Assembly (NCBI GenBank): GCA_019119495.1
Contig: DWWX01000020.1
Location: 121,738-185,737, forward strand
Length of the DNA: 64,000 nt
Direction of reading: 5' to 3'
DNA from: Candidatus Gemmiger stercorigallinarum
GTDB lineage: Bacteria; Bacillota; Clostridia; Oscillospirales; Ruminococcaceae
The notes beneath the pieces were generated by a model. It was given only the letters and a program-made list of their open reading frames with translations. It made no database searches and was not told where the DNA came from. Below, one piece after another: positions 7,769 to 64,000 of the stretch. Numbering within the stretch: position 1 is the first letter of the stretch; every line of letters starts with the position of its first letter. A program made the translations under genes and the position numbers.

Positions 7769-8485
<717 letters not shown>

Positions 8486-8493
8486 AATACAGT

Positions 8494-8537
8494 AAAATCC
8501 CGCACAGGGGCGGAGGCTCTCTGTGCGGGATTTTTTT
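8494..8537 (+). terminator. Rho-independent terminator of the liv operon
   Basis: AAATCCCGCACAG (8495-8507) pairs perfectly with CTGTGCGGGATTT (8521-8533), followed by T7. It lies ten bases after the livF stop. Confidence 0.95.
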
Positions 8538-11289: not shown

Positions 11290-11451
11290 TTCACATTTCC
11301 TCTTTTCTTGTAAATTGAAGGGCAGGGAGGTTCCCCGCCCGCTGCTGGCTGGCGCCGGACTACGGCGGCCCGGCAGGGGGGGCGGAGCGTTTTCCGGGAC
11401 GGTGCGGCGGGCAGATACACCCAATGCCTATGCGTTTGCAGACAAAGATAT

Positions 11452-11479
11452 TTGCAAAAACAGGCAGGTGGTATATAAT
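11452..11479 (+). promoter_or_regulatory. Sigma-A promoter of the DUF951-prfA operon
   Basis: TTGCAA (11452-11457), 16-bp spacer, TATAAT (11474-11479), about 43 bp before the DUF951 start. Confidence 0.65.
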
Positions 11480-11521
11480 ATATCTGTATGCCGCATTGCG
11501 GCCGGAAAGGCGGGACGAGCA

Positions 11522-42724: not shown

Positions 42725-42765
42725 AGAGAAAACCTCCCCACGGCAGCGCGCTGCCGTGGGGAGGT
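42725..42765 (-). terminator. Terminator after the MBOAT gene
   Basis: A perfect 16-bp stem, ACCTCCCCACGGCAGC and GCTGCCGTGGGGAGGT (42732-42747, 42750-42765) with a two-base centre, is followed on the minus strand by TTTTCTC. It isolates the surface-modification cassette from the spoIIIA operon. Confidence 0.88.
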
Positions 42766-53792: not shown

Positions 53793-54821
53793 TTACAAAA
53801 TCAGCATGGCGTCGCCGAAGCTGAAAAAGCGGTACTTTTCCTCCACGGCGACCTTGTAGGCCGCCATGGTTTTGTCGTAGCCGTAAAAGGCTGCGATCAG
53901 CATGATAAGGGTGCTTTCCGGCAGGTGGAAGTTGGTCACCAGGCCGTCGATGGCGTGCAGCTCCACGCCGGGATACAAAAAGATGCTGGTGTTGCCGCTG
54001 CAGGGGCGGATCTCGCCGTGGGCAGCCCAGACGGCCTCCAGCGTGCGGCAGCTGGTGGTGCCCACTGCGATCACCCGGCGGCCTGCGGCGCGGGCGGCGT
54101 TGATGGCAGCGGCCGCCTTGTCATCGATGCAGTACCACTCACTGTGCATGGCGTGGTCCTCGATGTTGTCCTCACTGACGGGACGGAAGGTGCCCAGACC
54201 CACATGCAGCGTGATCTCGGCAACGGCAACGCCTTTGGCGCGGATCTTGTCCAGCAGCTCCGGCGTAAAATGCAGGCCGGCGGTGGGGGCGGCGGCGCTT
54301 CCCAGCTCCTTGGCATAGACGGTCTGGTACTGGCTCTGGTCCTCCAGCTGTTTGGTGATGTAGGGCGGCAGCGGCATCTTGCCGAACTCGTCCAGTTTCT
54401 CGTACAGCGTTTCGGTGTCGTAGGTAAAGGTGACATGCTTGTTGCCGTCGGGCAGGGTCTCGTCCACCACGGCGGTCAGGCTGCCGTCGCCGAAGCTCAG
54501 CCGGGTGCCGGCCTGCATCCGCTTGCCGGGGCGGGCCAGGCATTCCCAGGTATCGCCCTTCACCTGGCGCAGCAGCAGCAGCTCGCACACTGCGCCGGTG
54601 GGGACCTTGACGCCCATCAGCCGGGCGGGCAGCACCTTGGAATTGTTGATGACCAGCACGTCGCCGGGCTCCAGGTAATCGGGCAGATCACGAAAGACGC
54701 GATGCTCGATGGAATCGCTGCTGCGGCGCAGCACCATCATCCGTGCCGAATCCCGCGGGTCGGCGGGTTCCTGCGCGATAAGTTCCTTGGGCAGGTCGTA
54801 CCAGAAATCTTTTTTCAGCAT
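53793..54821 (-). CDS. queA: S-adenosylmethionine:tRNA ribosyltransferase-isomerase
   Basis: Adds the epoxycyclopentane precursor from S-adenosylmethionine to preQ1-tRNA, giving epoxyqueuosine. It has 342 residues with LIAQEPADPRDSARMMVL, VLVINNSKVLPARLMG, PTAGLHFTPELLDKI, HVGLGTFRPV and the C-terminal VTNFHLPESTLIMLIAAFYG. It pairs functionally with tgt at 16655-17788. It is divergent from the lysine operon. Confidence 0.96.
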   Translation of the reverse strand: MLKKDFWYDLPKELIAQEPADPRDSARMMVLRRSSDSIEHRVFRDLPDYLEPGDVLVINNSKVLPARLMGVKVPTGAVCELLLLRQVKGDTWECLARPGKRMQAGTRLSFGDGSLTAVVDETLPDGNKHVTFTYDTETLYEKLDEFGKMPLPPYITKQLEDQSQYQTVYAKELGSAAAPTAGLHFTPELLDKIRAKGVAVAEITLHVGLGTFRPVSEDNIEDHAMHSEWYCIDDKAAAAINAARAAGRRVIAVGTTSCRTLEAVWAAHGEIRPCSGNTSIFLYPGVELHAIDGLVTNFHLPESTLIMLIAAFYGYDKTMAAYKVAVEEKYRFFSFGDAMLIL

Positions 54822-54842
54822 TGGTTTCTTCCCCTTTTTTCG

Positions 54843-54871
54843 TTGACAATCTCCCCGTGCAATGCTATGAT
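54843..54871 (+). promoter_or_regulatory. Promoter of the lysine/DAP operon
   Basis: TTGACA (54843-54848), 17-bp spacer, TATGAT (54866-54871). Transcription would begin near 54878, at the first base pairs of the lysine riboswitch. Confidence 0.85.
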
Positions 54872-54879
54872 GTACCCAA

Positions 54880-55049
54880 GCACAGAGGCGCGGTTTTCAT
54901 GAGTATCCGTTGGGATGATACGTCTGCCAGGGCGGTTGCCTGCGGAGAAAGGGCAAGCCGCCGAAGGCGATGCACGGCACGCATCGTACCTGGGCCCGTG
55001 GCCGAAAAGGCGCGGGACTGTCATGCCGATACGGCATGTTGCGCTGTGC
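54880..55049 (+). ncRNA. Lysine riboswitch (L box)
   Basis: The closing helix P1 is GCACAG (54880-54885) with CTGTGC (55044-55049). Inside are the conserved lysine-aptamer elements in order: AGAGGCGCG, a GAGTA loop-E-like turn, GGAGAAAGGGCAAGCC, GCCGAAGGCG, CCTGGGCCC, and GACTGTCATG near the 3' end. A terminator follows at 55083-55107. Lysine binding should favour termination and shut off asd-dapA-dapB and the genes behind them. Confidence 0.93.
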
Positions 55050-55082
55050 GGATATGCAGTATTCTATTATATTGCATTGTGT

Positions 55083-55107
55083 GCCGGTTTTCAAGCCGGT
55101 TTTTTTG
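55083..55107 (+). terminator. Riboswitch expression-platform terminator
   Basis: GCCGG and CCGGT flank TTTTCAAG and are followed by T7. It lies 34 bases after the aptamer and about 150 bases before the asd ATG, so it is regulatory rather than a gene end. The stem is short (5-6 bp). Confidence 0.75.
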
Positions 55108-55254
55108 TTGTCCGGGGCTTTTTTGCGCCGCCTGCAAATAAACCGAACCGTGTCTGCGGCCCGTTTTTCCTGTCACGGAAACAGCGGATGCCGCATACAA
55201 CATGATGTATACAGGTCTGCCGGGCAGCCCGGCGCAGAAAGGACGGTATCCAAA

Positions 55255-56331
55255 ATGAAAAAATACAAAGTCGGCGTTGTGGGCGCCACCGGCATGGTGG
55301 GGCAGCGTTTCATCACCCTGCTGGCGGAACATCCCTGGTTTGAGCTGACTGCCCTGGCGGCCTCGGCACGGTCTGCCGGCAAACCGTACCAGGAGGCGGT
55401 GGGCGGCCGCTGGCAGATGCCCACCCCCATGCCGGAAAATGTAAAAGACATGGTGGTGCTGGACGCCAGCCATGTGGAGGAAGTTGCCGGCCGGGTGGAT
55501 TTTGTTTTCTGCGCCGTGAACATGAAAAAGGATGAGATCAAGGCGCTGGAGGAAGCCTACGCTAAGGCCGAGTGTCCGGTGGTCTCCAACAACAGCGCCC
55601 ACCGGTTTACCCCCGATGTCCCGATGGTGGTGCCGGAGATCAACGCCGACCACATCGAGATCATCCCCGCCCAGCGCCGCCGCCTGGGCACCAAGCGAGG
55701 TTTTATCGCCGTCAAATCCAACTGCAGCCTGCAGAGCTATGTGCCCGCGCTGCACCCGCTGCGCAAGTACGGCATCACCAAGTGCCTGGTCTGCACCTAT
55801 CAGGCCATCTCCGGCGCCGGCAAGACCTTTGAGACCTTCCCCGACATTGTGGACAACGTGATCCCCTACATCGGCGGCGAGGAGGAAAAGAGCGAGCAGG
55901 AGCCGCTGAAGCTGTGGGGCCACATCGAAGGCGACCGCATCGTGCCGGCCGATGGCCCCAGCTTTACCGCCCAGTGCCTGCGGGTGCCGGTCTCGGACGG
56001 CCACATGGGCGCGGTGTTTGTCAGCTTTGAGAACACGCCTTCCAAGGAGCAGATCCTGAAGGACTGGGCCGAGTTCCACGGCCCCGCCCAGGACCTGGCG
56101 CTGCCCAGCGCGCCCAAACAGTTTTTGCACTATTTTACCGAGGACGACCGTCCCCAGCCCAAGCTGGACCGTATGCTGGAAAACGGCATGGCGGTCAGCA
56201 TCGGCCGTCTGCGCCCGGACACCCAGTACGACTACAAGTTTGTCTGCCTGTCCCACAACACGCTGCGCGGCGCCGCCGGCGGCGGCGTGCTGCTGGCCGA
56301 GCTGCTGGCCCAAAAAGGCTATTTTGACTGA
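55255..56331 (+). CDS. asd: Aspartate-semialdehyde dehydrogenase (archaeal/fungal type)
   Basis: Reduces aspartyl phosphate to aspartate semialdehyde with NADPH, feeding lysine/DAP, threonine and methionine. It has 358 residues with VGVVGATGMVGQRF (dinucleotide motif), the catalytic Cys in VKSNCSLQSY, and the His in LRVPVSDGHMGA. Length and the SNCSLQ context fit the archaeal/fungal ASADH branch rather than the common bacterial one. ATG 55255 follows AAAGGACGG; the upstream in-frame extension runs through the riboswitch and was rejected. Confidence 0.95.
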   Translation: MKKYKVGVVGATGMVGQRFITLLAEHPWFELTALAASARSAGKPYQEAVGGRWQMPTPMPENVKDMVVLDASHVEEVAGRVDFVFCAVNMKKDEIKALEEAYAKAECPVVSNNSAHRFTPDVPMVVPEINADHIEIIPAQRRRLGTKRGFIAVKSNCSLQSYVPALHPLRKYGITKCLVCTYQAISGAGKTFETFPDIVDNVIPYIGGEEEKSEQEPLKLWGHIEGDRIVPADGPSFTAQCLRVPVSDGHMGAVFVSFENTPSKEQILKDWAEFHGPAQDLALPSAPKQFLHYFTEDDRPQPKLDRMLENGMAVSIGRLRPDTQYDYKFVCLSHNTLRGAAGGGVLLAELLAQKGYFD

Positions 56332-56451
56332 GCATGCGCCGGGGCCGTCCCCTGCCCTGCTGCCGCTTTTTGTACATCCCGCTGCTTGAACTTATCCAAA
56401 CTTTCTTGCTCCAGTGGTATCTGGAACAAGCCCGAAGGAGGCATGTCCGCC

Positions 56452-57339
56452 ATGAAAAAACCTGTCTTTACCGGTGCAGGCGTTGCGATCATCACCCCCA
56501 TGCTGCCCGACGGCTCGGTCAACTATGACGAGCTGGGCCGCATCCTGGACGACCAGATCGCCAACCATACCGACGCCATCATCATCTGCGGCACCACCGG
56601 CGAGTCCGCGACCCTGTCGCACGACGAGCACACCGAGTGCATCCGCTACACCGTGCGCCGCGTGGCCGGCCGCGTGCCTGTTGTGGCCGGCACCGGCTCC
56701 AACGACACCGCCTATGCCATCAAGCTGTCGCAGCAGGCGGAGGCCGACGGCGCCGACGCCCTGCTGCTGGTGACCCCCTACTACAACAAAACCACTCAGG
56801 CCGGGCTGATCGCCCACTACACCGCCATTGCCAATGCGGTCAGCCTGCCCTGCATCATCTACAACGTGCCTTCCCGCACCGGCGTGAACGTCAAGCCGGA
56901 AACGCTGGCCGAGCTGTGCAAGCTGCCCAACATCAACGGCGTCAAGGAAGCCAGCAGCGACATCGTGCAGATCGCCGAGGTCGCGGAGCTGTGCGGCGAC
57001 GAGCTGAACATCTACTCCGGCAACGACAATCAGATCGTGCCGGTGCTGTCTTTGGGCGGCAAGGGCGTGATCAGCGTGCTGTCCAACGTGGCTCCCCAAA
57101 TGACCCACGACATCTGCCAGCTGTGGTTTGACGGCAACCATGCCGAAAGCCTGCGCCTGCAGCTGCAGGCCATGGGCCTGGTGCGGGCGCTGTTTAAGGA
57201 GTCCAACCCCATCCCCGTCAAGTGGGCGATGAACCGCCTGGGCTGGAAAGCCGGCGGCGTCCGCCTGCCGCTGGTGGATGCCAGCCCTGCCGTGCAGCAA
57301 ATGCTGGAAACCGAACTGAAGAAAAACGGCTTGCTGTAA
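56452..57339 (+). CDS. dapA: 4-hydroxy-tetrahydrodipicolinate synthase
   Basis: Condenses pyruvate and aspartate semialdehyde. It has a 295-residue TIM barrel with CGTTGESATL, LLLVTPYYNKTTQAGLIAHY (catalytic Tyr), YNVPSRTGVNV and the Schiff-base Lys in INGVKEASSD. ATG 56452 is ten bases after GAAGGAGG; the ATG at 56443 is too close to it. It belongs to the lysine-riboswitch operon. Confidence 0.96.
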   Translation: MKKPVFTGAGVAIITPMLPDGSVNYDELGRILDDQIANHTDAIIICGTTGESATLSHDEHTECIRYTVRRVAGRVPVVAGTGSNDTAYAIKLSQQAEADGADALLLVTPYYNKTTQAGLIAHYTAIANAVSLPCIIYNVPSRTGVNVKPETLAELCKLPNINGVKEASSDIVQIAEVAELCGDELNIYSGNDNQIVPVLSLGGKGVISVLSNVAPQMTHDICQLWFDGNHAESLRLQLQAMGLVRALFKESNPIPVKWAMNRLGWKAGGVRLPLVDASPAVQQMLETELKKNGLL

Positions 57340-57346
57340 GCCGACC

Positions 57347-57432
57347 GCTTGCACCCCCACAGGCCCGCAGCGTTCCCGTCCTGCGGGCGCCGCGGGCCTG
57401 CCTTGATTTTTTGGCGTCTGCGGGGTGCAAGC
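57347..57432 (+). promoter_or_regulatory. Structured dapA-dapB intergenic RNA element
   Basis: A perfect 11-bp outer helix, GCTTGCACCCC (57347-57357) with GGGGTGCAAGC (57422-57432), encloses AGGCCCGC (57361-57368) with GCGGGCCT (57392-57399). A TTGATTTTTTGG stretch lies in between. CCCGCAG/CTGCGGG offers an alternative inner pairing. It fills the whole gap between the dapA stop and the dapB ribosome site. It could be a processing or stability element, or an internal attenuator. Confidence 0.6.
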
Positions 57433-57464
57433 TGCAAAGATAAACAAAAGAAAGGACTTTGACC

Positions 57465-58232
57465 ATGACCGATATCATTTTGCAGGGCATCTGCGGCCGC
57501 ATGGGCCATGCCCTGATCGAAAAAATCTCCCAGCGCGAGGACTGCCGCGTGGTGGCGGGCATCGACCAGCAGGCCGGCAAGGTCGGGGACATCCCGGTCT
57601 ACGCCAGCCTGGACGACCTGCCGGTGCGGGGCGTGGTGATTGACTTTTCCTCCCCCGCCGGTTCGGTCAGCGCGGCGAAATACTGCGCCGAACACGGCAT
57701 GCCCTGCGTCATCTGCTCCACCGGCCTTTCCAAAGAGGACGAGGCAGTGCTGGAGGAGGCCTCGGCCCGCGTGCCGGTGTTCCGCAGCGCCAACATGTCG
57801 GTGGGCATCAATGTGCTGATCGAGCTGGCCCGCCGCGCCACCCGCCTGTTTGACGGTGAGTTCGACATCGAGATCATCGAGAAGCACCACCACAACAAGC
57901 TGGACGCCCCCAGCGGCACCGCGCTGATGATCGCGGACGCCATCAACGCCGAGGCTGACGGCGCCTACGAGTACGTCTACGACCGCCACGACGTCCGCCA
58001 GAAGCGCGGCAGGCAGGAGCTGGGCATCAGCGCCGTGCGGGGCGGCGGCATCGTGGGCGAGCACGAGGTGCTGTTCTGCGGGCCGGAGGAGGTCGTGACC
58101 ATCTCCCATTCGGCCCAGAGCCGCGGCGTTTTTGCCGACGGCGCCGTGCAGGCCGCCCTGTTTGTGGACGGCGCCCAGCCCGGCTTTTACACCATGACCG
58201 ATATGCTTAGAGGCAAAATGCAATGTCTTTGA
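57465..58232 (+). CDS. dapB: 4-hydroxy-tetrahydrodipicolinate reductase
   Basis: NAD(P)H-dependent step after DapA. It has 255 residues with an N-terminal CGRMGHAL motif (family GxxGRMG), FSSPAGSVSAAKYC, STGLSKEDEA and the substrate motif EKHHHNKLDAPSGTAL. ATG 57465 follows AAAGGA; an in-frame TTG two codons earlier is possible. The last ten bases overlap the CapA gene, so the two are coupled. Confidence 0.95.
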   Translation: MTDIILQGICGRMGHALIEKISQREDCRVVAGIDQQAGKVGDIPVYASLDDLPVRGVVIDFSSPAGSVSAAKYCAEHGMPCVICSTGLSKEDEAVLEEASARVPVFRSANMSVGINVLIELARRATRLFDGEFDIEIIEKHHHNKLDAPSGTALMIADAINAEADGAYEYVYDRHDVRQKRGRQELGISAVRGGGIVGEHEVLFCGPEEVVTISHSAQSRGVFADGAVQAALFVDGAQPGFYTMTDMLRGKMQCL

Positions 58233-59443
58233 AAAAGAACGAGATTGCCGCCTGCGTGGTGATCGCCGCGGGCATTGCCCTGGCGCTAGCTGTGGGGGCC
58301 GGGGTGTTCCCCACCGCCGCGGTGGCGGCAATGCTCTCCCCCACCCCGACGCCGAGCCCTTCCCCCTCGCCCACGCCTGCGCCCACCCCAACGCCGGAAC
58401 CGACGCCGGTGGTGGAAACGGTGCGGTTTTCCGCCAGCGGCGACAACCTGATCCACGAGGGACTGTACAACCAGGCCCGCGCCCGTGCCGCCGACGGCGG
58501 CTACGACTTTACCTACGCCTACGAGAACCTGCAGGACTTTTACGCCGGCTTTGACGTGAACTGGCTGAACCAGGAGACGCTGGTCAACGACGATTACGAG
58601 CCATCCGGCTACCCGATGTTCTCGACGCCGGGGGATATCACAAACGCGCTGTACGACGTGGGGTTCCGGGTGTTCAGCACCTCCAACAACCACAGCTACG
58701 ACAAGGGCGCCGGCGGCATCGCTTCCTCGATGGCCCACTGGGCCGCCATGCCGGAGGATGTGGTGACAGTCGGTTTTTATGACCTGGCGACCTACGACAA
58801 CTATTCCTACCAGACAGTCAACGGCATCACCATCGGGTATCTTTCCTACACCGAGAGCACCAACGGCCTGCCCACGCCGGAGGGCAGCGAGTACGGCATC
58901 GTCTACCTGAGCCAGACCGACGTGATCGAAAAGCAGATCGCCGACATACGCCCCAACTGCGACGTGCTGGTGGTCAGCTGCCACTGGGGCGTGGAGGGCA
59001 GCCACACCGTCACCGACGGGCAGCGCCAGACCGCCCAGTGGCTGGCAGACCAGGGGGTGGACCTGATCATCGGCACCCACCCCCATGTGACCCAGACCGC
59101 CCAGTGGCTTTCGGCCGCCGACGGCACCGACGCTTTTGTGGCTTACTCGCTGGGCAACTTTATCAGCGCCCAGTCGGAGCCGGACAATATGATCGGCCTG
59201 ATTTTGGACATCACCATGCAGAAAACCACCGCCCCCGACGGCACCGTAACGGTGGAGCTGCTGGACCCGAAGCTCCACCCCACCGTTACCCAGTACGAGA
59301 GCGGCTATGCCAACATCCGGGTCTATCTGTTTGAGGATTACACCGACGAGATGGGCGCCGCCCACGGTAATTTCAGCCTGAGCCGCGAGTACATCCAGAA
59401 TGTATTGAACGAATCGGTGGACGCACAATTTCTGACCGGCTGA
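58223..59443 (+). CDS. CapA family protein (metallophosphatase-like), membrane anchored
   Basis: The 406-residue product has an uncleaved signal or anchor at about residues 8-38 (CVVIAAGIALALAVGAGVFP) and a Thr-Pro/Ser-Pro linker (about 39-62). The extracytoplasmic CapA/PGA_cap domain follows: FSASGDNLIHEGLY, NWLNQETL, FRVFSTSNNHSYDKG, VVSCHWGVEGSH, IIGTHPHVTQTAQW and AYSLGNFISAQ. CapA proteins take part in poly-gamma-glutamate or other surface polymer work, often with uncertain activity. It overlaps dapB by ten bases, so it is under the lysine riboswitch. Confidence 0.9.
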   Translation: MSLKKNEIAACVVIAAGIALALAVGAGVFPTAAVAAMLSPTPTPSPSPSPTPAPTPTPEPTPVVETVRFSASGDNLIHEGLYNQARARAADGGYDFTYAYENLQDFYAGFDVNWLNQETLVNDDYEPSGYPMFSTPGDITNALYDVGFRVFSTSNNHSYDKGAGGIASSMAHWAAMPEDVVTVGFYDLATYDNYSYQTVNGITIGYLSYTESTNGLPTPEGSEYGIVYLSQTDVIEKQIADIRPNCDVLVVSCHWGVEGSHTVTDGQRQTAQWLADQGVDLIIGTHPHVTQTAQWLSAADGTDAFVAYSLGNFISAQSEPDNMIGLILDITMQKTTAPDGTVTVELLDPKLHPTVTQYESGYANIRVYLFEDYTDEMGAAHGNFSLSREYIQNVLNESVDAQFLTG

Positions 59444-59486
59444 CGGCTGCCGGCCAGCCCCTATCCCAAAAACAAAGGAGGAAACC

Positions 59487-59942
59487 ATGTACGGAGTCAG
59501 CAAGATCACCAGCGAGCAGAACATCATGCTCACCACCTTCCCCGGCGCGCAGTACAGCGCCAAAAGCCTGGCCGAGCACCTGGACGTGTTTGCCCGCGCC
59601 GGCATCGTGGTGGATATGATCTGCCAGAGCGCCCCCCGCGGGGAGGCGGTGGATTTCAGCTTTACCACCAGCTACGCAAACTTTGCCGCCGTGATGAAGG
59701 CGCTGCCTGAGGCAGCCAAGGTCCATCCGCCGCTGATCTCCGGCGGGTATTCCAAGATCAACCTGTTCGGGGAGGAGATGGTCACCAGCTGCGGCGTGGC
59801 GTCCCGCGCCCTGAGCGCCCTGGCCGGGGAGAACATCGAGATCGCGCTGATCACCACCAGCGACCTGGACATCTCGCTGCTGATCCGCCAGCAGGACGAG
59901 GACGCGGCGCTTGCCGCATTGACAAAAGCGTTCGGCCTGTAA
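59487..59942 (+). CDS. Stand-alone ACT-domain protein, aspartate-kinase-like regulatory module
   Basis: The 151-residue product looks like the tandem ACT regulatory domains of aspartate kinase without the kinase. ISSGYSKINLF-type stretches read LISGGYSKINLFGEEMVTSCGVASRALSALAGENIEIALITTSDLDISLLI in pieces, as in lysine-binding ACT pairs. The N-terminal half (SAKSLAEHLDVFARAGIVVDMICQ) is the first ACT fold. An excellent AAAGGAGG ribosome site precedes the ATG. As last gene of the lysine operon it may sense lysine or partner a kinase subunit encoded elsewhere. Confidence 0.85.
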   Translation: MYGVSKITSEQNIMLTTFPGAQYSAKSLAEHLDVFARAGIVVDMICQSAPRGEAVDFSFTTSYANFAAVMKALPEAAKVHPPLISGGYSKINLFGEEMVTSCGVASRALSALAGENIEIALITTSDLDISLLIRQQDEDAALAALTKAFGL

Positions 59943-60013
59943 TTTTCGGCGGGGATCCCCTGCACTTCAGGCACGCCCTGCCCGAAGGCGCCGCGCGCCC
60001 CATGCAGGCCAGC

Positions 60014-60091
60014 CTGCAATGCCGGGTCAAAGTGCGGGAAGGCTGACGCGATGACGAACGGAAGCCGGACAATTTGGGCTTTGCCAAAGCC
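60014..60091 (+). pseudogene. Degraded inverted copy of the 3' end of era
   Basis: Over 78 bases this stretch aligns without gaps to the minus-strand end of era (63639-63716) with about ten mismatches. It would read LQCRVKVREG-stop-RDDERKPDNLGFAKA against LQCWVKVREGWRDNERQLDNLGFAKP in era; a TGA replaces the TGG tryptophan codon. Similarity stops at both ends. It has no start and cannot be functional protein. It is a remnant of a duplication or recombination. Confidence 0.8.
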
Positions 60092-60136
60092 GGTCGCTGC
60101 CCAACCGCAGCCGCAGACCAAAAGCCAAACAGGAAA

Positions 60137-60182
60137 AGACGGCATACGTCCCTTTTGGGGGCGGTATGCCGTCTTTTTTTTG
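60137..60182. terminator. Bidirectional terminator between the lysine operon and mutS2
   Basis: GACGGCATAC (60139-60148) pairs with GTATGCCGTC (60165-60174) followed by T7 on the plus strand. A4 on the left gives a shorter U-tract for mutS2. It lies about 195 bases after the ACT gene, beyond the era fragment. Confidence 0.92.
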
Positions 60183-60192
60183 ATACAGCGCG

Positions 60193-62571
60193 TTATTTCA
60201 GCTCCACCACAGTCACGCCGGCCTCGCCTTCGCCGTAGCGGCCCAGGCGGAAGCTCTTGACGTTTTTGTGGGTGCGCAGGTGTTTTTGGATGGCGGCGCG
60301 CAGCGCGCCGGTGCCCTTGCCGTGGATGATGGAAACGGTATTTTGGCCCCGCAGCACCGCATTGTCGATGAACTTGTCGGTCTCGGCCAGGGCCTCCTCC
60401 ACGGTATAGCCCAGCAGGTTCAGCTCCATGCTGGCCCTGCGGTCGTGGTCCAGCTGCACGGTGGTGCGGGACCTTGCCGGCTGGCGCTGGGGCCGGGGCT
60501 TTTCCATCTTGTCCGGCGCGCGCAGACCGGAAAGCGGCACCTTGGTTTTCAGGATGCCGGCGCGCACCTCCACCATGCCGTCGCGCCCGGGGCGGGAAAG
60601 CACGGTGGCCAGCTGGTTCAGGTCGGCAATGACCACCTCCTGCCCCGGCTGGGCGTCCTTCAGCGGCACATACTCCTTTTTGGGCTGCGCGCCGCTCTCG
60701 GTGCGGGAAAGCAGCTTTTCGGTGTCTTTGCGGGCGATCTCGCGGGCGCGGATGGCGCGCTGGGCGGCGCTGGCCTTCTCGTCCTTCTGGATACGGCGCA
60801 GCTCGTCGGTCAGGGCGTAGGCATCGTTCTGCACCTGCTGCACCAGGTCATGGGCCTGCTTGCGGGCGGCGTCCAGTTCGGCCTGGCCCTTGCGGATCAG
60901 CTCGTCGCGCTGGGCCTCGGCGCTGGCCAGGGCGTTTTCAGCCTGGGCGCGGGCCTGCTCGGCGTCGTCCTGGGCGGCTTTCAGCTGCAGTTTCAGATCA
61001 TCCAGCTGGGCCAGCACGCTGTCCAGCCGCTTGTCGTCGCTGGACATGTGGGCGCGGGCGGCGTCGATGATCTCCTCCGGGATGCCCAGCTTGGCGCTGA
61101 TGAGGAAAGCGTTGGACTTGCCCGGCACGCCCACGCTGAGCTTGTAGGTGGGGGCCAGGCTCTCCACGTCAAACTCGCAGCTGGCATTGACGACGCCGGG
61201 GGTCTCCAGCGCGTAGACCTTCAGCTCGGCATAGTGGGTGGTGGCCATCAGCAGCGCGCCCTGTTTGCGCAGCCGCTCCAGGATGCTGACCGCCAGCGCC
61301 GCGCCCTCGGCGGGGTCGGTGCCGGCGCCCAGCTCGTCCAGCAGCACCAGCGTGCCCCGGCGGGCCAGCTGCAAAATGCCGGTGATGCGTTTCATGTGGC
61401 CGGAGAAGGTGGACAGGCTCTGTTCGATGCTCTGCTCGTCGCCGATGTCCACCAGATACTCGGCAAAGCAGCAGACGGCGCTGCTCTCGTGGGCGGGGAT
61501 CAAAAAGCCGTGCTGCGCCATGGCGTTGAGCAGGCCGGCGGTTTTCAGCGATACCGTCTTGCCGCCGGTGTTGGGGCCGGTGATGACCAGGGTGTCGTAT
61601 TCGTCGCCCAGGGTGATGTCCACCGGCACCACCTTTTTCTTGTCGATCAGCGGGTGGCGCGCCTTGTTCAGCTGAAAGCGCACCCCGTCGTTGACGGCGG
61701 GCAGAAAAGCGTTCTGCTCCACCGCCAGGCGCGCCTTTGCCAGCAGCAGGTCGATCTGCAGCATGGCCTCGTAGCTGTGGGAGAACTGCGGTTCCAGCTG
61801 GGCCACCTGTGAGGAGAAGGCAGACAGGATGCGGGTGATCTCCTCCTGCTCCTGGGCGCGCAGCTGCATGATGCGGGCGTTGGCCTCCACCACCGCGGTG
61901 GGTTCCACAAAGATGGTGGCGCCGGTGGAGGAAACGTCATGGATGACGCCGCCCACCTCGCCGCGGTACTCGGCGCGGACAGGCACGACGTAGCGGCCGT
62001 TGCGCAGCGAGACCACCGCGTCCTGCAAAAACTTGTTGGTGGTGGAGTTCTTGATGATGTTGTCCAGCTTGGTGCGGATGGAATCCTCGGTCTGGCGGAT
62101 CTTGCGGCGCAGCTCCCGCAGCGTGGCGCTGGCAGTGTCGGCCATTTCCTCCGGCGAGAGGATGGACTCAGTGATCTGCCGCTCCAGCACAGGCTGGGGG
62201 CTGAGGGCGAAAAATAAATCGTCCACCGGCAGCACATCGTGGTCAGAGACCCCGTACCACTTGCTTAACCCGTCAAAGTTGCGCAGGGTGGCGGCGACCT
62301 CCAGCAGCTCGCCCATCGAGAGGATGCCGCCCTTGACCGCATGGGCGGCGATGCGGCGGGCGTCCGACACCGCGCCGAAGCGGGGACTGCCGTTTTTGAT
62401 CAGCAGCGAGTTGACCGCGTCGGTCTGGGCAAGGGCCCACCGCTCGTCCTCCGGGGTCTGGCAGGGCTGGATGGCCTGCATCATCTCTTTTGTCTCGCGG
62501 CAGGCGCACAGCTCGGTGGCGCGGGCAATGATCTTGTCCAGCTCCAATGTCGTTCGATATGAGATATCCAT
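60193..62571 (-). CDS. mutS2: Endonuclease MutS2 / ribosome rescue factor
   Basis: The 792-residue product has a MutS core and ATPase with Walker A GPNTGGKTVSLK and Walker B LVLLDELGAGTDPAEG. A long coiled coil lies at about residues 510-620, a KOW-like part follows (LKDAQPGQEVVIADLNQLATV), and a C-terminal Smr nuclease domain has LNLLGYTVEEAL and IHGKGTGALR. MutS2 limits recombination in some species and splits collided ribosomes in Bacillus. It precedes recO's 3' end by 53 bp; recO, the YqzL-like gene and era are upstream. Confidence 0.95.
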   Translation of the reverse strand: MDISYRTTLELDKIIARATELCACRETKEMMQAIQPCQTPEDERWALAQTDAVNSLLIKNGSPRFGAVSDARRIAAHAVKGGILSMGELLEVAATLRNFDGLSKWYGVSDHDVLPVDDLFFALSPQPVLERQITESILSPEEMADTASATLRELRRKIRQTEDSIRTKLDNIIKNSTTNKFLQDAVVSLRNGRYVVPVRAEYRGEVGGVIHDVSSTGATIFVEPTAVVEANARIMQLRAQEQEEITRILSAFSSQVAQLEPQFSHSYEAMLQIDLLLAKARLAVEQNAFLPAVNDGVRFQLNKARHPLIDKKKVVPVDITLGDEYDTLVITGPNTGGKTVSLKTAGLLNAMAQHGFLIPAHESSAVCCFAEYLVDIGDEQSIEQSLSTFSGHMKRITGILQLARRGTLVLLDELGAGTDPAEGAALAVSILERLRKQGALLMATTHYAELKVYALETPGVVNASCEFDVESLAPTYKLSVGVPGKSNAFLISAKLGIPEEIIDAARAHMSSDDKRLDSVLAQLDDLKLQLKAAQDDAEQARAQAENALASAEAQRDELIRKGQAELDAARKQAHDLVQQVQNDAYALTDELRRIQKDEKASAAQRAIRAREIARKDTEKLLSRTESGAQPKKEYVPLKDAQPGQEVVIADLNQLATVLSRPGRDGMVEVRAGILKTKVPLSGLRAPDKMEKPRPQRQPARSRTTVQLDHDRRASMELNLLGYTVEEALAETDKFIDNAVLRGQNTVSIIHGKGTGALRAAIQKHLRTHKNVKSFRLGRYGEGEAGVTVVELK

Positions 62572-62624
62572 AAATTTTGTTTACTCCATGGCAAAGGGCA
62601 GCCGCAGCGGCCGGGCCGGCGCGC

Positions 62625-63374
62625 TTACAGCTCCCCCAGTGTTTTTAAGAAATCCAGGCTTTTCAGCCCCTGGCCCAGGTGGGCCAGCAGATACCGCTCG
62701 CTGACGAAACCCAGCCGTTTCAGGCTTTGGGGCGTCAGCGTAAAGGCAAACAGTTTTTTGTCCTCCGCCAGGCAGATATGCCGCAGCGCGTACAGCGCCC
62801 CTGCGTCCAGATTGGGCGTCCGGTTGAGGCGCCGGGCACAGTCGGCACAGAGCAGCGTGCCCTCGGCGGGGTCCAGGTAAAAATCGCCGCCGTCGTATCT
62901 GCCGCAGGAGGCACAGGCCAGCAGCTGGGGCATATAGCCGGACAGCGTCATGGCCCGCAGCTCGTAGATAGCCTTGAGCTGGGGCAGCGGCCGCTTGCCC
63001 TCGCTGAGCATATACAGGCTGTTGAGCAGCAGGCGCAGATGCTCGGCCGACTCCGGCGGCGCGGGCGAAAGCGCCGCGGCCACCTCGGCCAGATACATGG
63101 CAAGCGCCATGCCCTCCACGCTTTGGGACAGGCCGTGGAAGCTGCGCTTGATCTGGGCCGAATCGATAAAATGGCTGGACCGCCCGGCGGTGATGACGAA
63201 CTCGGAGTAGCAGAACAGCCCGCAGGCGCTGAACAGCTTGTTTTTGGGCCGCAGGCTGCCGCGGGCCGAGGCCGACACCACGCCCAGGTCAGGGGTCAGC
63301 AGGGTCAGGATCTGGTCCGCCTCCCCCACTTTCACCTGGCGCAGCACAAGCCCCGTTGTCGCTGTCTGCTGCAT
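62625..63374 (-). CDS. recO: DNA repair protein RecO
   Basis: The 249-residue product has an N-terminal OB fold (ATTGLVLRQVKVGEADQILTLLT), a helical domain, and a zinc finger CASCGRYDGGDFYLDPAEGTLLCADC in pieces. It loads RecA on SSB-coated DNA with RecR. ATG 63374 follows AGAGGA inside the YqzL-like gene. The order era-yqzL-recO is as in Bacillus. Confidence 0.94.
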   Translation of the reverse strand: MQQTATTGLVLRQVKVGEADQILTLLTPDLGVVSASARGSLRPKNKLFSACGLFCYSEFVITAGRSSHFIDSAQIKRSFHGLSQSVEGMALAMYLAEVAAALSPAPPESAEHLRLLLNSLYMLSEGKRPLPQLKAIYELRAMTLSGYMPQLLACASCGRYDGGDFYLDPAEGTLLCADCARRLNRTPNLDAGALYALRHICLAEDKKLFAFTLTPQSLKRLGFVSERYLLAHLGQGLKSLDFLKTLGEL

Positions 63375-63498
63375 AGCTGTCCTCTCCCGGCAGCGCGTTG
63401 GCGGCGCGCTGCTGCATTTTATAGTCCAAATAGTACCAGATATCGCCGGTTTCGGCAAATCGTTTCCATTGTTCGTCCGGGCTGCCCGGTCCGTGCAT
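63289..63498 (-). CDS. YqzL-like small protein between era and recO
   Basis: A 69-residue reading frame with the YqzL pattern W-x-x-F-x-x-T-G-x-I-x-x-YL-x-Y (EQWKRFAETGDIWYYLDYKM). ATG 63498 is eight bases after AAGGGG. Position between era and recO is the same as Bacillus yqzL, a protein of about 47 residues and unknown role. The C-terminal 35 residues, rich in Gly, Asp and Pro, are encoded in an 86-bp overlap with recO and are probably not conserved. Confidence 0.65.
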   Translation of the reverse strand: MHGPGSPDEQWKRFAETGDIWYYLDYKMQQRAANALPGEDSYAADSDNGACAAPGESGGGGPDPDPADP

Positions 63499-63635
63499 CT
63501 CCGCCACCCCTTCCGCTTGTTGTGATACAACCCAGTGTAGCGCAGCCAGGCGGCAATGTTTGTCTGACTGGGGCGGCGGGAAAATTTTCCATCAACGCAC
63601 GGCGGAGGGCGGCATTGCGCCGGCAGAATAAGCGG

Positions 63636-64000
63636 TCAGGGTTTGGCAAATCCCAAATTGTCCAGCTGGCGCTCGTTGTCGCGCCAGCCTTCCCGCACTT
63701 TGACCCAGCATTGCAGGTTGACCTTTGTTCCCAGCAGCTCCTCGCAGTCCAGGCGGGCGGCGGTGGCGATCTTTTTCAGCATCTGGCCGCCTTTGCCGAT
63801 CACCATGCCCTTGTGGCTCTTTTTCTCGCAAGTGATGGCCACCGTGATGTCGATCAGGTCTTTGTCGGGGCGCTCCTTGAAAGAATCCACCGTCACGGCG
63901 ATGCCGTGGGGCACTTCCTCCCGCAGGAAAAGCAGCGCCTTTTCCCGCACCAGCTCGGCCACCAGTTCCTTCTCCGGCAGGTCGGTATAGGCGTCGTCGT
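63636..64000 (-). CDS. era: GTPase Era, C-terminal part (5' end outside window)
   Basis: About 120 residues are visible. The frame runs off the window edge, so the GTPase domain is not seen. The KH RNA-binding domain is clear: LREEVPHGIAVTVDSF, IGKGGQMLKKIA (GxxG loop) and the C-terminal LQCWVKVREGWRDNERQLDNLGF. Era binds the 3' end of 16S rRNA during 30S assembly. A degraded copy of its last 78 bases lies at 60014-60091 on the other strand. Confidence 0.93.
   Translation of the reverse strand, partial: DDAYTDLPEKELVAELVREKALLFLREEVPHGIAVTVDSFKERPDKDLIDITVAITCEKKSHKGMVIGKGGQMLKKIATAARLDCEELLGTKVNLQCWVKVREGWRDNERQLDNLGFAKP

Follow-up and report, generated by a model that had tools for sequence, protein, structure and literature searches.

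A decayed and inverted copy of the 3' end of era at a gene-order junction private to one Gemmiger genome

The ACT-mutS2 spacer and its era copy

We analysed a window of 64,000 nucleotides (the whole stretch of DNA considered here) from a Gemmiger MAG (G000; 2.06 Mb, 44 contigs, 86.62% complete). Toward its right end, a stand-alone ACT-domain gene, which closes a dapA-dapB-capA-like cluster (we presume the names dapA and dapB from the translations), is followed by mutS2, recO and the 3' part of an intact era gene, a 323-codon open frame with no stops (Table 1). The spacer between the ACT gene and mutS2 lies at a break in gene order, and it holds both an inverted copy of the end of era and a strong hairpin.

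Table 1. Features at and around the era copy, in window positions.
Feature	Position	Strand	Evidence or remark
Decayed inverted era copy (last 28 codons + 2 bp, era stop codon excluded)	60006..60091	+	74/86, E=5e-24
In-frame TGA inside era copy	60044-60046	+	sequence
3' part of intact era (KH domain), likely template; gene extends past window	63636..64000	-	Pfam KH_2 E=3.3e-19
Spacer between ACT gene and mutS2	59943..60192	.	250 bp; private to this genome
Strong hairpin with T-run on +	60134..60177	.	fold z=-7.95 for 60130-60185; terminator-like site 60157-60176, + only
Stand-alone ACT-domain protein gene, 151 aa; left of junction	59487..59942	+	Pfam ACT_9 E=1.5e-19
mutS2; right of junction	60193..62571	-	Pfam MutS_V, Smr, MSSS
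recO	62625..63374	-	Pfam RecO_N and RecO_C
Window part of ~96% identity tract to G006	60193..64000	.	continues to about 65090 in contig

Searching the 64-kb window by BLASTN, we found that the plus strand of 60006-60091 aligns significantly, with 0 gaps, to the complement of 63639-63724. A first-pass annotation had paired 60014-60091 with the complement of 63639-63716, and on that pair we obtained 68/78 identities, no gap and exactly ten differences; its alignment is therefore sound, but its length of 78 bp is too short, as BLASTN extends the copy to 86 bp. The annotation had also taken this stretch for a duplicate of the end of era that is inverted and decayed, and had read an era tryptophan codon as changed to a stop; the first description is upheld, and the second is correct (era TGG to TGA).

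The copy occurs once. When the window was compared with itself (E≤1e-6), the one other off-diagonal match was a palindrome at 42732-42765, a perfect 34-bp self-complementary stretch that is perhaps a terminator hairpin. A whole-genome search with the spacer returned itself and era, followed by a match of 25 bp (E=0.003), and no further copy of the spacer was found in the genome beyond the 25-bp and self-hairpin matches. BLASTN of the 250-bp gap against related genomes matched only era in the genus: era was found in 33/35 Gemmiger genomes, and a second era match in 1/35, that one being G000 (E≤0.001). Similarly, 72/79 named mutS2 loci (many of them from the same genomes as the Gemmiger set) had a match to era and 0/79 had two. 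As a base rate, the 52 of the 79 fetched mutS2 loci that were at least 14 kb long (747,766 bases) contained three self-repeats at E≤1e-8 with the low-complexity filter on, and none of the 52 had two matches to the era end. One distant clostridial MAG (L183) carries a direct repeat of ~115 bp, 84% identical (8392-8504 and 11378-11491), whose first copy lies shortly downstream of mutS2 and whose copies look palindromic by eye, like a dispersed repeat.

In a family-wide control with the C-terminal 120 aa of Era, a match was found in 269/297 genomes, and two matches were found in at least three genomes (G000, G171 and G299) among the matches listed, in a search for which a 28-residue fragment is harder to detect in distant genomes. 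Literature searches, which did not name the locus, found no work on it.

Decay and folding of the copy

Compared with the era gene of G000, the copy has 12 differences, of which 4 are synonymous and 8 non-synonymous, one of the latter being the stop. Over the same stretch, the era genes of two other Gemmiger genomes differ from that of G000 by 3 synonymous and 0 non-synonymous changes (G006) and by 9 and 1 (G023), and among random single changes in these codons 198/252 (79%) would be non-synonymous. The second tryptophan codon of era has become CGG in the copy, and seven of the copy's bases are absent from all 30 Gemmiger era genes compared (30 fetched of 33 found), those of G000 and G006 included. 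The locus thus presents what is used to recognise a pseudogene fragment, namely a significant match to an intact parent together with a disabled frame and a neutral substitution pattern. Judged by these substitutions, the copy behaves as unconstrained DNA, and it looks like a dead fragment, ordinary rearrangement debris rather than a working part.

The first-pass annotation had suggested that the short sequence might have been reused as RNA, and we consider it extremely improbable that the copy acts in this way, for example as a decoy in the ACT 3' UTR or as an antisense to era. The copy does lie between the ACT stop codon and the strong T-run hairpin, which is likely a terminator for the ACT side given its terminator-like site, and it would thus fall in the ACT 3' UTR; a transcript from that side, however, would be era-sense and not antisense. 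An antisense transcript would need mutS2 read-through past the hairpin at 60134-60177, around which the scan found no minus-strand terminator-like site, so that such read-through is possible; the other end of this hairpin offers only four T on the minus strand, and mutS2 may use the hairpin although the scan gave no sign of this. The fold z of the whole spacer (-2.77) can be attributed to the hairpin, because 59990-60130 alone gives -0.27, and folding of the era copy itself is average (z=-0.05 on the plus strand and 0.41 on the minus strand). Neither conservation in relatives nor unusual folding, by which a small RNA would be recognised, was found for the copy; with no Rfam match at E≤1, average folding outside the hairpin and no counterpart in the genus, the RNA role was dropped.

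An exchange over mutS2-recO-era and the source of the copy

Our search for the origin of the copy also exposed an exchange of ~4.9 kb over mutS2-recO-era. By MutS2, the closest named record is Candidatus Gemmiger faecigallinarum (98%), which is G006. G000 and G006 are 94.3-97.5% identical in 11 of the 12 400-bp steps from 60263 to 65062, the remaining step (87%) covering the spacer behind era. To the left of this tract, identity is 77-92% in 14 400-bp steps (54263-59862), with the four genes there being 80-88% identical, and to the right it is 67-91% per 400-bp step. At 4-fold sites, G000 and G006 differ at 66/731 (9%) in mutS2, recO and era vs. 190/518 (37%) in dapA, dapB, capA and the ACT gene, while G000 and G023 differ at 288/660 (44%) and 187/504 (37%) in the same two sets. 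We read these values as the mark of a recent exchange between species, about 4.9 kb long and running from 60193 to about 65090. Virus-like particles with host DNA fragments of 8.4-8.9 kb, that is, GTA-like packaging, are reported for Gemmiger and Faecalibacterium in PMC12946183, which places a candidate GTA operon in Faecalibacterium and not in that study's Gemmiger references; such packaging is a possible vehicle of the mutS2-era exchange. The copy lies about 100 bp outside the left edge of the tract, a proximity that may reflect no more than the end of G000/G006 homology, which falls at the same edge.

We placed the copy among era genes with a tree of its 86 bases, in which the copy and the era genes of G000, G006 and G032 are split from the rest with an ultrafast bootstrap of 81, the order inside this group being unsettled. 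The era genes of G000 and G006 differ at three sites, and in all three the copy carries the base of G000. Given this base agreement and the grouping with G000-type era, the source of the copy is most likely this lineage's own era. Some homoplasy would accompany this origin: at copy positions 47 and 74, both synonymous sites, the base is as in G023 and not as in G000 or G006. At positions 35, 37, 68 and 69 the copy has tract-type era bases, against G023; these bases also occur in 13, 6, 5 and 3, respectively, of 28 other era genes.

These data bear on a rival origin, in which G000 acquired its present mutS2-recO-era block from the G006 lineage and kept the fragment as a leftover of its older, native era. 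The exchange tract is real and starts at the spacer, and the 14% divergence of the copy is near the background between these species. However, the copy groups with tract-type era and shares the four bases just listed with it against G023, only 4/12 of its differences are synonymous when orthologues differ mainly at synonymous sites, and the inversion of the remnant would still need explaining; we regard this origin as quite unlikely. The relative age of copy and exchange can be gauged roughly. The background is star-like (4-fold divergence of 0.37, 0.37 and 0.42 among G000, G006 and G023), and we estimate that a copy younger than the exchange would show at most about 5.6 differences (some 1.5 for the era side, added to half the corrected 9% over 86 bases), fewer than the 12 observed (Poisson P=0.012); the estimate assumes equal rates of change in a dead fragment and at 4-fold sites. 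This weakly suggests that the copy is older than the exchange and, therefore, faintly hints that the G000 lineage was the donor.

Gene order at the junction and a proposed origin

The join of the ACT gene and mutS2 is a gene-order break found in this genome alone among those compared (one genome per species), and it carries no long homology. In three relatives (G010, G021 and G005) the two genes are convergent neighbours 3.50-3.55 kb apart, and most relatives have other 3' neighbours for both the ACT gene and mutS2. Both genes have different neighbours in G006 and G023, as does the ACT gene in G016, and several kinds of gene, assigned by eye, lie 3' of mutS2 in relatives. The gene that the ACT gene faces in G023 and G016 has DUF4093 and, below the cutoff, a match to Toprim; it resembles ribonuclease M5. 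The protein next to mutS2 in G010 (L114:9466-10401) has 311 aa and no Pfam match at E≤0.001, and a 47% identical one occurs in G006 (L120). This neighbour gene was not found in G000, G023 or G016; given its absence from the latter two as well, its loss may have nothing to do with the junction. The join may have arisen by deletion of about 3.3 kb.

An assembly artefact, in the form of a chimeric join, was considered in view of the incompleteness of the MAG and the presence of the junction in a single assembly. A misassembly, however, would not account for 12 substitutions within 86 bp, and the spacer is well inside a 345-kb contig, making this very unlikely.

Apart from the era copy, the spacer has no relative in the 35 Gemmiger genomes (E≤0.001), which leaves 164 bp without a match. 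A mobile element was rejected, as the spacer has no match in plasmid and phage collections and no further copy in the genome beyond the short matches given above. We also looked for extension of the copy into its flanks, using shuffles that preserve single-base content only, and found none that was significant: the left flank showed no similarity above shuffles (1504/2000 reached its score against era upstream), and the sole weak exception, the 42-bp right flank against the 100 nt downstream of era (38/2000), was lost with a longer flank (905/2000). These comparisons weigh on the view that a large inverted duplication doubled mutS2-recO-era head to head, after which nearly all of the second copy except the era end was deleted. 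Its orientation would fit, as a mirror axis left of mutS2 would put era on the plus strand with its stop towards mutS2; against it, no residue of recO, mutS2 or the region behind era was seen in the copy flanks (57 to 85 of 200 shuffles reached the scores in six comparisons). We judge a truncated duplication unlikely. A failed duplication of the era-recO-mutS2 end, one of the options in the first-pass annotation, is possible, but the spacer shows no sign of a second recO or mutS2.

The first-pass annotation had also proposed that the copy marks an old inversion boundary and that the paired copies could recombine and flip the segment between them. A gene-order break does lie at the copy, but the bracketed block is not inverted: era and mutS2 share a strand, with era a short distance upstream, in 32/33 Gemmiger genomes with both genes, G000 included (counted by eye from match coordinates), the exception being G025. 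As 31/32 other genomes share the order and strand, we rejected an inversion of the 60.0-63.7 kb block. Inversions by staggered breaks leave inverted duplicates at both ends of the inverted segment, and an era fragment could be such a boundary duplicate, whether from staggered breaks or from recombination between the inverted copies; with the segment in its common orientation, only a double flip fits, which makes this highly improbable. Flipping by homologous recombination is itself unlikely because the longest perfect run shared by the copy and era is only 22 bp, short of the repeat length that homologous flipping needs, and the segment retains the common orientation; the two should be poor substrates for it.

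Ku was found in 0/35 Gemmiger genomes, several of which are incomplete, and in 0/19 with at least 90% completeness, with a control search positive in Bacillus subtilis. Classical end joining was thus dropped as unlikely, and template switching or illegitimate recombination, known in short-patch and template-switch versions, fits better because no Ku was found.

On the strength of a copy that occurs once among the genomes searched and has decayed as if neutral, of a junction private to G000, of the uninverted block and of the failure to find Ku, we propose that the copy is probably a rearrangement relic, in which the ACT gene and mutS2 were joined without long homology, an inverted patch of era was copied in, and drift followed. 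A break between the ACT gene and mutS2 would have been closed without long homology, perhaps by deletion of most of the 3.5 kb found between these convergent genes in three relatives. An 86-bp patch of the era 3' end, 3.5 kb away, would have been copied in inverted orientation into the join, by a template switch or by capture of a single strand, and would then have drifted without selection. Here we infer the deletion, the template-switch or capture step and the union of copy and junction in one event, the last of these from adjacency alone.

A narrower version, which we hold only tentatively, would make the patch the footprint of Ku-independent template-switching repair of a chromosome break that joined the ACT gene and mutS2 in one event, with the repair polymerase copying the end of a nearby gene from the opposite strand before the break was closed. 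If true, a copy with a datable parent would be a natural record of Ku-independent repair in Gemmiger. The copy alone matters little; it is of use as a scar by which a gene-order break in this genus can be roughly dated.

The relic resembles bacterial intergenic partial-gene duplicates in being a short end-copy with no start of its own, an in-frame stop, neutral-looking substitutions and an intact parent; it is unlike the usual ones in being inverted, 3.5 kb from its parent and at a junction private to this genome. It also recalls homology-facilitated illegitimate recombination (HFIR), in which insertion is coupled to deletion and which is reported for three competent species and, as a rare event, for conjugation in E. 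coli (PMC3240628). Both have a join without long homology and, if the presumed deletion here is real, an insertion coupled to a deletion; in HFIR, incoming DNA lies beside a homologous anchor, and insertion and deletion are similarly large, averaging about 1 kb (PMC3240628). The patch described here, in contrast, is a local, inverted one, much smaller than the presumed deletion.

In short-patch illegitimate recombination, or templated insertion, a junction receives tens of bases copied from another place in the genome. Clean ends and microhomology identify such insertions; here decay has removed both, and with the copy 14% diverged no microhomology can be read at the patch ends. The era copy is like them in consisting of tens of bases from another part of the genome placed in a junction.
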